A stretch of DNA of 64,000 nt, taken from positions 1 through 64,000 of the forward strand of contig JAUHZU010000001.1 in assembly GCA_030425705.1 (NCBI GenBank), in the 5' to 3' direction. The translations under genes were made by a program, and so were the position numbers. Shown here piece after piece: positions 48,291 to 51,147 of this stretch. A model generated the notes under the pieces. The model saw only the letters and a list, made by a program, of their open reading frames with translations. It was not told the DNA's origin and made no database searches. The first letter of the stretch is position 1; each line of letters opens with the position of its first letter. The stretch is from Phycisphaerae bacterium. GTDB taxonomy: Bacteria > Planctomycetota > Phycisphaerae > Phycisphaerales > Phycisphaeraceae.

Positions 48291-48322
48291 AAAACCGCCA
48301 CGGCTTAAAGCCGTGGCGGTTC
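48291..48322 (-). terminator. Terminator after the inactive Clp-fold paralogue
   Basis: A 14-bp perfect stem AACCGCCACGGCTT / AAGCCGTGGCGGTT with a one-base loop. On the minus strand it is followed by TT within GGTTTTCC. Confidence 0.8.
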
Positions 48323-48362
48323 TTGACAACGATCTTCATAGAGTCTGGACTCTGGTCAGGCG

Positions 48363-49763
48363 TTAGCCGTATGTGACGCCGTACTCGTCTTCGGGATAGG
48401 GCACCTTGTAGATATCGTCCCAGTAGTGGGCGTTGCCGTACTCGCCGATCCCCTTGAGGTGGGTATCGATGCGGTCGAGGGCTTCGATGTAGGGGTCCAC
48501 GAAATCGGGGTTCAGCCCGAAGTTAGGCACGATCCCCATGCGGACAACGTCGAGCGCCTCAATCGCATTCTGTAACGTGTTAAGCCCCGAGCGGATACGG
48601 GAGACCAACTGCTGGGACTGGCGGAGGTCGTTCGCCCAGGCGTCGGGGTCGGCGAGGATCGTCTGGCCGTACTGCCCGGGAAAGTAGACGTGCCGCTCGG
48701 GGTGGGTGGCGTAGAGGTCTTCGACCGCCTCGGCGACGGTATCGATGGCGTCGACCCCGCGGTCCAGGGCGCGCTTCGCGTCGCGGAGGCGCTCGATCTG
48801 GGGGTTGTTGCTGTTCTCGCTGTTACGGGGGATCGCGGGGAGCTGGTTGTTCAGGCCGTCGAGACCTTCCTGGAGCGGCGCGAGGCCGTTCATGATCACC
48901 GCGAGGTCCAGGGTGACGAAGCCGTAGCGGTTGGCGGGCGTCCAGTTCTGCGCGCCGATCAGGTCGCCGACCCAGACTGCGTCGTACTCTTCGATGTGCT
49001 GGGCGAGGCCGAACTTGATGGCCTGGTCATGGTTGAGGAAGACGGTCTCGCCCTCGGACAGGGGCGTGACATGCTCGTAGTCCTGGAGGTGGCCGGTGCT
49101 AGGGGGCGCGGTGTTGGTGACGTGGATCTCACCGCCTTCCAACCAGTAGTGCAGGGACTTCGTCTCGTCGATCATCGCGCGGACGATGTCGGGATTATGG
49201 CCGCGGGTTTCGGCTGCGGAGGCGAGCTGGTTGGTGGTGATACCGACCCACTTGGCGAGGACCTCCTGGCTGCCGGGTGGGAAGTATCGCTTCAAGGGCA
49301 TGCCGCCGACCCGGGCGCCGTCGGTCACGAAGATGGAGTCGCTGAAGAACACGGGGAACGTCGCGAGGAACAGGGCGTCCTGGATGACCGCGTGGAACTC
49401 CAACTCGTTGGCGTGGATGCCGACGACCTCTTTGTCATAGAGCTGGCCGCTGTCCGCATCGCTGTTGATCATGAACACGGCGTGTTGGATGTACGGGTTA
49501 GCGGCGGCCATGCGGATCGTCTCGATGACGTTCTCGCGGTGTGTGTCTTGCCCGAAGGTGCCGGCGAGGGGGACCTCGACGTAAAGGGTTGCGTCGTAGA
49601 TCAGCGCGTCGAACCCATCGCTGGTGACCGGGTCGGCCGCGGCGCGGGCCGGGGCATGCGCAACGGGCGGGGCCTTGATACCGGAGGACGCGGAGGTGAG
49701 GCCGGCCGGGGCTAGGCAGGCGGCGGCCGTGCAGGCAGCCGCGAGCAGGAGGCGGGTCTTCAT
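48363..49763 (-). CDS. Secreted Clp/crotonase-fold paralogue lacking the active-site serine
   Basis: 466 residues with a signal peptide (about 1-25). It is clearly homologous along its length to the product of the neighbouring gene at 49789-51147: TSDGFDALIYDATLYVEVPL, HAVFMINSDADSG, SDSIFVTDGARVGG, LHYW, HPERHVYFPG and TILADPDAW align in order. The glycine loop (TGGG in the partner) is here SDAD, and the partner's Ser140 aligns with Phe132 (QDALFLATF). It therefore looks like a non-catalytic member. The C-terminal third is helical. It follows its paralogue by 25 bases, so the two should be co-expressed. No named family is assigned. Confidence 0.75.
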   Translation of the reverse strand: MKTRLLLAAACTAAACLAPAGLTSASSGIKAPPVAHAPARAAADPVTSDGFDALIYDATLYVEVPLAGTFGQDTHRENVIETIRMAAANPYIQHAVFMINSDADSGQLYDKEVVGIHANELEFHAVIQDALFLATFPVFFSDSIFVTDGARVGGMPLKRYFPPGSQEVLAKWVGITTNQLASAAETRGHNPDIVRAMIDETKSLHYWLEGGEIHVTNTAPPSTGHLQDYEHVTPLSEGETVFLNHDQAIKFGLAQHIEEYDAVWVGDLIGAQNWTPANRYGFVTLDLAVIMNGLAPLQEGLDGLNNQLPAIPRNSENSNNPQIERLRDAKRALDRGVDAIDTVAEAVEDLYATHPERHVYFPGQYGQTILADPDAWANDLRQSQQLVSRIRSGLNTLQNAIEALDVVRMGIVPNFGLNPDFVDPYIEALDRIDTHLKGIGEYGNAHYWDDIYKVPYPEDEYGVTYG

Positions 49764-49788
49764 CGTGTTGTTCCTTTTGAGTGCTTGG

Positions 49789-51147
49789 CTATTCGATCTC
49801 GTAGACCACTTCGTTCTCGGCCCAATACGCGGCGTTACCCTGGCGGGCGATGCCTTCGATGCGGTTGGCTACATCTTCTAGCGCATCTTCCAAGTCCGAG
49901 ATGTTGCCGGCGTCAATGTCCAGCTTCGCCAAGGCTCGTCGGATGTTCGAGAGGGCGCCACGGAACGAGCGGGCGTAGTTGCGACTGGCTTGCGTGTCCT
50001 GCTTCCACTGCTCGGGGTCGGCGAGGATCGTGCGGCCTTCGGCGTCGGTAAAGTAGATGTGCCGTTCGGGGTGAACGTAGGGCAGATTGTTCAACGCCTC
50101 GTTGATCGTGCTGTATCCGTCCAGCAGCAGCTTATAGGTGGCCCGCTCCTCAAGCACCGCAGCGATCTGTGGGTTGTCGCGGTTATCGCGGTTGTCGCGG
50201 AAGTAGGGGATGGACGCGAGGGAGCGTTCAAAGAAGTCTTGGTCGACACGCGTGACGTTGTAGATGTCGGCGATCTCGTGGACGACCTGGCCGTAGTGGT
50301 TGGCCCGCCTCCACCCGGGGACACCGATCTTCTCGCCGACCAGGTCGGCGTGGTAGCCGCTGATGCGCTCGGCGAGGCCGACCATCTCGGCCTGGGCGGT
50401 GGTGAGGGTCAGGACGTCTTGATCCGAGTCGATGAGGTGATAGTTATCGACGGAGTTGGGCGAACTCGGAGCCTTGTCGGAGAGGACGCCCTCGCCGTTG
50501 ACTTCCCAGTAGTGCAGTTCGGCGGGCTGGTGCATCATGGCGGGCATGAACAGCGCGGAGTGGCCATTGCGTTCGGCGACCTTGCCCATGCGTGCGGCGA
50601 CGAAGGCGAGGTTGTCGGCGACGATCGGTGTGCCGTCTTGCAGCGTAACGTAGCCGACCGCGCCCCCGACGGTGCCGCCGTCGATCATAAAGATGTTGTC
50701 GCAACTGAAGACGGTCCAGGTTCCCGCGGAGATCGCGTGCTCGATGATGATGGTGTACTCGGTGGTGTCGTGGTACTCCTCAATGACATCGAGCATGGCA
50801 TCGGCATGGAACATCAGCCCCCCGCCAGTCCGCATCAGGAAGACGATATGGTTGATGTCGGGGTGCTCACCGACGTAGCGTACGTTATTGATGATACTTT
50901 CGGCGGTGACGTTGTCACCGATCCCACCAGACGACGGCCGGGGGTTGACCAGCGAGACCACCGGTGAAGGGGCGTCGATCATCGGGACCTGGATGTAGAA
51001 GGTCTTGCCGTAGCTCAGGTCCTCGAACCCATCGCTGATGACGTTGGGGTTGTCGCTGTCGCCCTGCGCCCAGGCGGCGGTCGGGAGCAGGCCGGCGAGG
51101 GAAAGCGCGGCGGCGGTCATCGCGGTACGGGCATAGCGTTGGAACAT
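49789..51147 (-). CDS. Secreted Clp/NfeD-like serine protease-fold protein
   Basis: 452 residues from the ATG at 51147; an upstream frame to 51174 is not needed. Signal peptide ends AWAQG. Residues about 50-250 show the Clp/crotonase-fold order seen in NfeD/SppA-type proteases: YIQVPMIDAP, the glycine loop LMRTGGGLMFHADAML (108-110), the candidate nucleophile Ser140 in EHAISAGTWTVFSCD, then GGTVGGAVGYV. A matching lysine is not certain. The C-terminal 180 residues are helical and contain the in-frame repeat RDNRDNRDN. It probably processes envelope proteins with or under control of its inactive paralogue. This is inference from motif order, not a database match. Confidence 0.72.
   Translation of the reverse strand: MFQRYARTAMTAAALSLAGLLPTAAWAQGDSDNPNVISDGFEDLSYGKTFYIQVPMIDAPSPVVSLVNPRPSSGGIGDNVTAESIINNVRYVGEHPDINHIVFLMRTGGGLMFHADAMLDVIEEYHDTTEYTIIIEHAISAGTWTVFSCDNIFMIDGGTVGGAVGYVTLQDGTPIVADNLAFVAARMGKVAERNGHSALFMPAMMHQPAELHYWEVNGEGVLSDKAPSSPNSVDNYHLIDSDQDVLTLTTAQAEMVGLAERISGYHADLVGEKIGVPGWRRANHYGQVVHEIADIYNVTRVDQDFFERSLASIPYFRDNRDNRDNPQIAAVLEERATYKLLLDGYSTINEALNNLPYVHPERHIYFTDAEGRTILADPEQWKQDTQASRNYARSFRGALSNIRRALAKLDIDAGNISDLEDALEDVANRIEGIARQGNAAYWAENEVVYEIE
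50173..50199 (-). repeat. Three tandem 9-base units inside the Clp-fold gene
   Basis: On the plus strand GTTGTCGCG, GTTATCGCG, GTTGTCGCG; they encode RDNRDNRDN in the protein. Confidence 0.8.

Follow-up and report, generated by a model that had tools for sequence, protein, structure and literature searches.

The gene pair and its predicted folds

The window analysed here is a stretch of 64,000 nucleotides from a bacterium of the order Phycisphaerales (assembly GCA_030425705.1, contig JAUHZU010000001.1, positions 1 to 64,000). Two neighbouring genes on its minus strand, P0001 and P0002, encode related proteins with a predicted Clp-type fold. P0001, which carries a candidate nucleophilic serine, is here called the Ser subunit, and P0002, which carries a candidate catalytic lysine, the Lys subunit. 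The genes and the features that bear on their possible catalytic role are as follows.

49789..51147, minus strand: gene of the Ser subunit P0001 (452 aa), from the list of open reading frames (ORFs), the match to PF25145 and the AlphaFold2 model
51064..51147, minus strand: predicted signal peptide of P0001 (about residues 1-28), cleavage site placed by eye
50284..51012, minus strand: Clp-fold domain of P0001 (about residues 46-288), from structural alignment to 6m4b_A
50818..50826, minus strand: oxyanion-type glycine loop Gly108-Gly109-Gly110 of P0001; G109 and G110 are present in 67/67 Ser subunits
50728..50730, minus strand: codon of Ser140, candidate nucleophile, in the column of Ser97 of the protease 1510-N; serine in 67/67 Ser subunits
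50614..50616, minus strand: codon of Asp178, where 1510-N has its catalytic Lys138, from profile alignment
49813..50295, minus strand: helical C-terminal part of P0001 (about residues 285-445), from AlphaFold2 secondary structure
48363..49763, minus strand: gene of the Lys subunit P0002 (466 aa), from the ORF list, BLASTP to P0001 and the AlphaFold2 model
49368..49370, minus strand: codon of Phe132 of P0002, at the serine position, from alignment to P0001 and the family
49251..49253, minus strand: codon of Lys171 of P0002, the kept catalytic lysine, aligned with Lys138 of 1510-N and invariant in 67 Lys subunits

A sequence-only reading of this DNA had described a tandem, secreted Clp-fold pair made up of one candidate serine protease and one pseudoenzyme. 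Much of that description held. The two ORFs lie 25 nt apart on the minus strand, and the proteins align over nearly their full length (BLASTP, 30% identity over 423 aa, E 1e-56). In P0001, the motifs R-TGGG-L and H-AISAGT bring glycine loop and serine in the order known from NfeD/SppA-like proteases. P0002 has SDAD-SG in place of the loop and ALFLA, with Phe132, in place of the serine.

Each protein was modelled singly with AlphaFold2 from a 14-row alignment. The predicted local distance difference test score (pLDDT) was 85.7 for P0001 and 82.9 for P0002, with predicted template modelling scores of 0.83 and 0.81. For both, the closest solved fold was 1510-N (PH1510), the NfeD-type stomatin-specific protease of Pyrococcus horikoshii: P0001 matched chain 6m4b_A best (Z 21.1, root-mean-square deviation (rmsd) 2.4, 183 aligned, model residues 46-288) and P0002 matched 3bpp (Z 18.2, rmsd 3.8, 191 aligned). 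Next came Bacillus subtilis SppA (Z 17.3 for P0001 and 14.7 for P0002), followed by the C-terminal half of Escherichia coli SppA (Z 16.6 and 14.1). ClpP chains scored about 15-16 with P0001 and about 12-14 with P0002, in the latter case together with crotonases. Foldseek alone likewise ranked 1510-N first for P0001 (3viv_A, E 2.1e-6). A Clp/crotonase-type fold is thus supported for both proteins by the models, as is the long helical C-terminal part that had been noted earlier. Against the Protein Data Bank (PDB), neither a profile of Lys subunits from the window's genus (E <= 10) nor one of Lys subunits from across the order (E <= 1) found a Clp-fold chain by sequence, so that the fold of P0002 rests on its AlphaFold2 model and on homology to P0001.

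P0001 scored 44.3 bits with PF25145 (NfeD1b_N), above the gathering cut-off of 40, and 13.3 bits with the NCBIfam SppA domain model TIGR00706, below the cut-off of 155.45. P0002 reached 11.5 bits with PF25145, below the cut-off, and its tie to the family rests on BLASTP to P0001; no match to the SppA domain model was listed for it. With matches listed up to E 10, neither protein showed an NfeD domain or PF00574 (CLP_protease); PF00574 was matched at E <= 0.01 by 4 of 14 Ser subunits from across the order.

The N-termini of both proteins are hydrophobic and of low model confidence and look like signal peptides by eye, which is how the earlier reading had taken them; the pair is therefore probably secreted. 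In P0001, AlphaFold2 places a helix at residues 2-18, nearly all of residues 1-31 fall under pLDDT 50 and the hydropathy maximum lies near the N-terminus. No further membrane segment was evident, as past residue 40 neither protein has a 19-residue stretch above a mean hydropathy of 1.4.

Serine and lysine on separate chains

The dyad of 1510-N is Ser97/Lys138, and the S97A and K138A variants are each described as inactive in the extracts of the source (PMC3795559). Searched against the PDB, a profile of 17 family members found chains of 1510-N. The Ser column of the profile coincided with Ser97 (replaced by Ala in chain 6m4b, the S97A variant). Its Lys column, located 17 residues ahead of a conserved Gly, coincided with Lys138 (replaced by Ala in chain 3bpp, the K138A variant). 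At these two positions P0001 has S140 and D178, and P0002 has F132 and K171. That is, neither chain has a full Ser/Lys dyad alone, and the dyad is complete across both chains together. In the models, Ser140 lies between strand 130-139 and helix 141-147, and Lys171 is the second residue of helix 170-186. Judged by this alignment, the supposed enzyme is without a base and the supposed pseudoenzyme retains one, which the sequence-only reading had missed; its interpretation as a whole is partly supported.

Using a broad family profile (E <= 1e-4), we found homologues in 320 of the 321 genomes of the order that are at least 85% complete. The residue survey covered 175 non-redundant homologues, comprising 34 unpaired genes and 67 tandem groups, after 7 of 182 matches had been dropped as redundant; loci L001-L015, L017 and L029 were left out since they are covered by larger loci or by the window. 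Subunits were classed by gene position, not by residues, and the first two genes of each group were counted. All four groups of the window's genus, including that of the window, have Ser without Lys in the first gene and Lys without Ser in the second. Among the other 63 groups, which we call the order-wide pairs, 59 show exactly Lys without Ser followed by Ser without Lys. Taken over the 67 groups, the Ser genes have the serine in 67/67, Gly-Gly in 67/67 and the lysine in 3/67 cases, and the Lys genes have the lysine in 67/67, Gly-Gly in 0/67 and the serine in 1/67 cases (the Lys gene of L019 is truncated before the Ser column and was scored as lacking the serine). Among 400 well-filled columns, the catalytic lysine is the sole one that is invariant in the 67 Lys subunits; in the Ser subunits, 13 different residue types occur there.

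Among the 34 unpaired relatives, 27 have both residues, four have neither, one has the lysine only and two have the serine only; one of these two (L105) lies near a contig start, and its partner may be cut off. Fisher's test for Lys among Ser-bearing proteins gave 2.8e-18, a figure that is far too strong since the proteins are related.

The sequence-only reading had likened the pair to ClpP and ClpR, with P0001 as the active protease and P0002 as a regulatory or structural subunit without activity. ClpP/ClpR and ClpP1P2 are built of homologous subunits, and ClpR lacks the serine. The common fold of the pair, and the absence of serine and glycine loop from P0002, would suit such an arrangement. 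However, where its closest solved relative has the catalytic lysine, P0001 has Asp178 and so does not look like a complete protease, and P0002 retains exactly that lysine, the one position that never varies across the 67 Lys subunits. There is no evident reason for a degenerating or merely regulatory paralogue to keep it. ClpP holds a Ser-His-Asp triad in one subunit and is a cytosolic or organellar, ATPase-linked enzyme, and ClpR is not known to supply a missing catalytic residue. A serine subunit without lysine next to a partner with Lys171 points to a composite active site and not to regulation of the ClpP/ClpR kind, which we regard as unlikely here.

Slightly less likely again is a heteromer of two pseudoenzymes with a structural or peptide-binding role. 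The dyad is incomplete in each chain alone, and the loss of both residues from 4 of 34 unpaired relatives indicates that catalysis can be dispensable in the family. Yet a dead pair should lose these residues, and instead Ser and Gly-Gly are kept in every Ser subunit and Lys in every Lys subunit, while the counterparts in the partner vary.

Least likely of the three is catalysis in cis by a base of the Ser subunit itself. Candidates would be His114, beside the glycine loop in 4/4 genus Ser subunits, and the Glu that 97% of the order-wide Ser subunits have there. But the residue is not the same in the two groups, B. subtilis SppA has Glu at the matching place by profile alignment and its K199A variant is nevertheless described as inactive in the extracts of the source (PMC7568657), and this reading would leave the partner's invariant lysine unexplained. 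In the 63 order-wide Ser subunits, no Lys or His reaches 85% conservation. Lys189 of P0001 was ruled out as the catalytic base, being missing in two of the four genus Ser subunits.

Several loci of the survey show further arrangements. At L111:1282-7401, four family genes in a row form two successive complementary Lys/Ser pairs, so that the split pattern is kept even in a duplicated pair. A third family gene follows the Lys/Ser pair at L043, L072, L089, L095 and L109, with no Lys at the column in 5/5. The four unpaired relatives that have lost both Ser and Lys (L042:5113-6609, L048:4696-6141, L051:4625-6778 and L022:1324-2625) keep Gly-Gly and are apparent pseudoenzymes; three of the four are from the window's own family. 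L059-L062, unpaired and with both residues, come from Verrucomicrobiota. In L035, L037, L044 and others, both unpaired and order-wide paired, the proteins have a segment at the N-terminus with a DGR or KDG motif; the genus pair has no such segment.

Genomic setting and origins of the pairs

Two further features belong to the locus.

49764..49788, minus strand: spacer of 25 nt separating the P0001 and P0002 genes
48291..48323, minus strand: hairpin with a 15-bp stem and 3-nt loop, just 3' of the pair (fold z-score -5.95)

An EF-G gene precedes the pair and an ABC-F-type ATPase gene follows it, both on the same strand. The hairpin at 48291-48323 is possibly a terminator or a repeat element, and a second hairpin follows the EF-G gene (fold z-score -2.97); hairpins on both sides of the pair would suit a two-gene unit. 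A consensus scan for promoters and terminators listed neither of them; it gave one promoter-like and one terminator-like site, neither tellingly placed (means of 0.5 and 2.2 in shuffled sequence). The genes closest to the pair, on either side, gave matches to the profiles of PBP, HEAT-repeat, ABC-F-type ATPase, EF-G and MutL. No SPFH/stomatin gene that could share an operon with the pair was found among them, and they give no hint of a substrate or physiological role.

Three other genomes of the genus have the tandem pair in the same gene order; a fifth, 70% complete, gave no match. In all four genomes with the pair (4/4), it sits between the EF-G and ABC-F-type ATPase genes, as identified by Pfam for both neighbours in the window and in L032 and for one neighbour each in L033 and L034, the rest by eye. 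In L033 and L034, a single further small ORF stands ahead of the ATPase gene; the one in L034 (5429-5914) resembles, by eye, a transposase from a small mobile element. Chance adjacency of the two genes is unlikely because they occupy the same place in four genomes, and this constant place, together with the 25-nt gap, argues for a two-gene unit. Queried against its own genome, P0001 matched only itself and P0002 at E <= 0.01. The broad family profile gave five matches there at E <= 1e-4, that is, three further, more distant relatives besides the pair.

Phylogenetic trees were computed, with the catalytic columns taken out, from 86 rows and again after removal of 7 near-duplicates or long branches. 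The eight genus proteins form one clade (support 100/99), which groups with 26 of the 34 unpaired genes, most of them with both Ser and Lys, and stands apart from the order-wide pairs (support 100*). The order-wide Lys subunits also form one clade (support 100/98). Forcing both kinds of Ser subunit together cost 161 log units and was rejected by the approximately unbiased (AU) test (p-AU 3.4e-6); the same constraint on both kinds of Lys subunit cost 88 log units and was likewise rejected (p-AU 4.4e-4). The gene order also differs, with the Ser gene first in the window's genus and the Lys gene first in the order-wide pairs. A single ancient pair common to genus and order is rejected by the tree and the AU tests, and from this separation we conclude that the Ser/Lys split probably arose twice within the order.

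The genus pair is conserved within its genus. Among the 51 genomes of the window's family (f1), the profile of its Lys gene matched strongly (E below 1e-200) in four, all of the genus; other families of the order have a separate pair, apparently of independent origin. The order-wide Lys profile matches strongly in families f2-f5. In f1 its best match had E 1.2e-37, with one match per matching genome except for G008, which has two on different contigs; in the window's own genome it matched P0002 alone, weakly. In a phylum sample of 391 genomes, 37 were matched at E <= 1e-15, of which 33 belong to f2, f3 and f5, one to f1 and three, weakly matched, lie elsewhere. Viral contigs searched with P0001 yielded no relatives.

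A proposed two-gene protease and its known counterparts

We propose that P0001 and P0002 are the halves of a single secreted serine protease of the NfeD1b/1510-N/SppA type, each encoded by its own gene. P0001 would give the nucleophile Ser140 and the glycine loop, and P0002 the general base, Lys171. In their assembly, a heterodimer or some higher hetero-oligomer, Lys171, at its helix start, would reach Ser140 of the partner and act in trans. Each dimer would then have one working composite site and one dead site, formed by Phe132 with Asp178. Such a pair could have originated when a self-sufficient ancestor with both Ser and Lys was duplicated and each copy lost one catalytic residue, complementarily; the same process would have run independently in another lineage of the order, with reversed gene order. 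Judging by residue pattern and predicted folds, we consider it likely that P0001 and P0002 form one secreted Ser/Lys protease, a heteromer whose active site is composite and which would be the counterpart, in two genes, of E. coli SppA.

If the ancestral dyad had lain within one chain, complementary losses would have left two dead proteins, with neither residue held invariant. The invariance of Ser and Lys, each in its own subunit, would be accounted for by a site that forms between subunits. The extracts of the literature are compatible with such an ancestor: the active sites of B. subtilis SppA take residues from two adjacent monomers (PMC7568657), and 1510-N works as a dimer in which both residues 138 lie very near each other and which binds one peptide, cutting at one point (PMC3795559). 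It is, in our judgement, reasonably likely, if less firmly held than the reading of the window's pair, that there is a two-gene class of secreted Ser/Lys proteases with at least two origins in Phycisphaerales, from ancestors with an inter-subunit dyad, convergent with the one-chain E. coli SppA.

Several points weigh against this interpretation. His114 offers a possible other base. Three of the 63 order-wide groups (L081, L110, L120) have a Ser subunit that carries Lys as well, and one (L063) has a Lys subunit with Ser at the column. Homologues were sampled from the best-listed matches, roughly one per genus, and not at random, and the phylogenetically independent contrasts number three, too few for a significant sign test. 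The trees include 22 of the 63 order-wide pairs, and the groups for the AU tests were named after the first tree had been seen. What looks like a late duplication could instead reflect gene conversion between the two copies of the genus. Finally, the text of the 1510-N source in the extracts does not state whether the dyad is intra- or inter-subunit (PMC3795559).

If the composite protease exists, an essential catalytic residue comes from proteins that annotation would label pseudoenzymes, and a whole class would break the rule that a missing serine means a dead enzyme. The two splits would then offer a clear case from nature in which duplicated genes degenerated in a complementary way, down to single catalytic residues. 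The ancestral NfeD1b-like dyad would then work across a subunit interface, which bears on the mechanism of 1510-N and NfeD proteins. Among the open-literature matches listed, outside of which most subscription journals lie, we recognised no account of a two-gene split Ser/Lys protease or of these planctomycete pairs, which does not prove that there is none.

The family of P0001 and P0002 has glycine loop, Ser and Lys in the same order as 1510-N, and the Ser and Lys columns coincide. 1510-N, however, carries Ser97 and Lys138 in one chain, whereas the pair has the two residues in two chains, together with an extra helical C-terminal part in each and no matched NfeD domain. NfeD1b proteins combine a ClpP-like with an NfeD domain and have an adjoining SPFH gene; the window pair has neither a matched NfeD domain nor an SPFH neighbour. 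The proposed site from two adjacent subunits resembles that of B. subtilis SppA, to which the fold match is given above, but that enzyme is described in the extracts as a homo-octamer, with both residues coming from copies of one protein (PMC7568657). The order-wide Phycisphaerales pairs (for example L044, L046 and L098) show the same complementary residue pattern as the window pair, and differ from it in forming a separate clade, in having the Lys gene first and in their extra N-terminal segment.

E. coli SppA (protease IV, family S49) likewise has two related Clp-fold units, one with the serine and the other with the lysine, and the residue pattern of the Ser and Lys subunits would fit an SppA-like composite site. 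Its residue 409, in the C-terminal domain, is Ser and its residue 209, in the N-terminal domain, is Lys; we take Lys209, placed by residue number, to be the catalytic partner of Ser409. The Lys column of our profile falls on Asn in the Ser domain of this protein, and the Lys-subunit profile gave no useful alignment with its N-terminal domain. E. coli SppA is one polypeptide that starts with the Lys domain; the window pair, from another family, is encoded in two genes and starts with the Ser gene.

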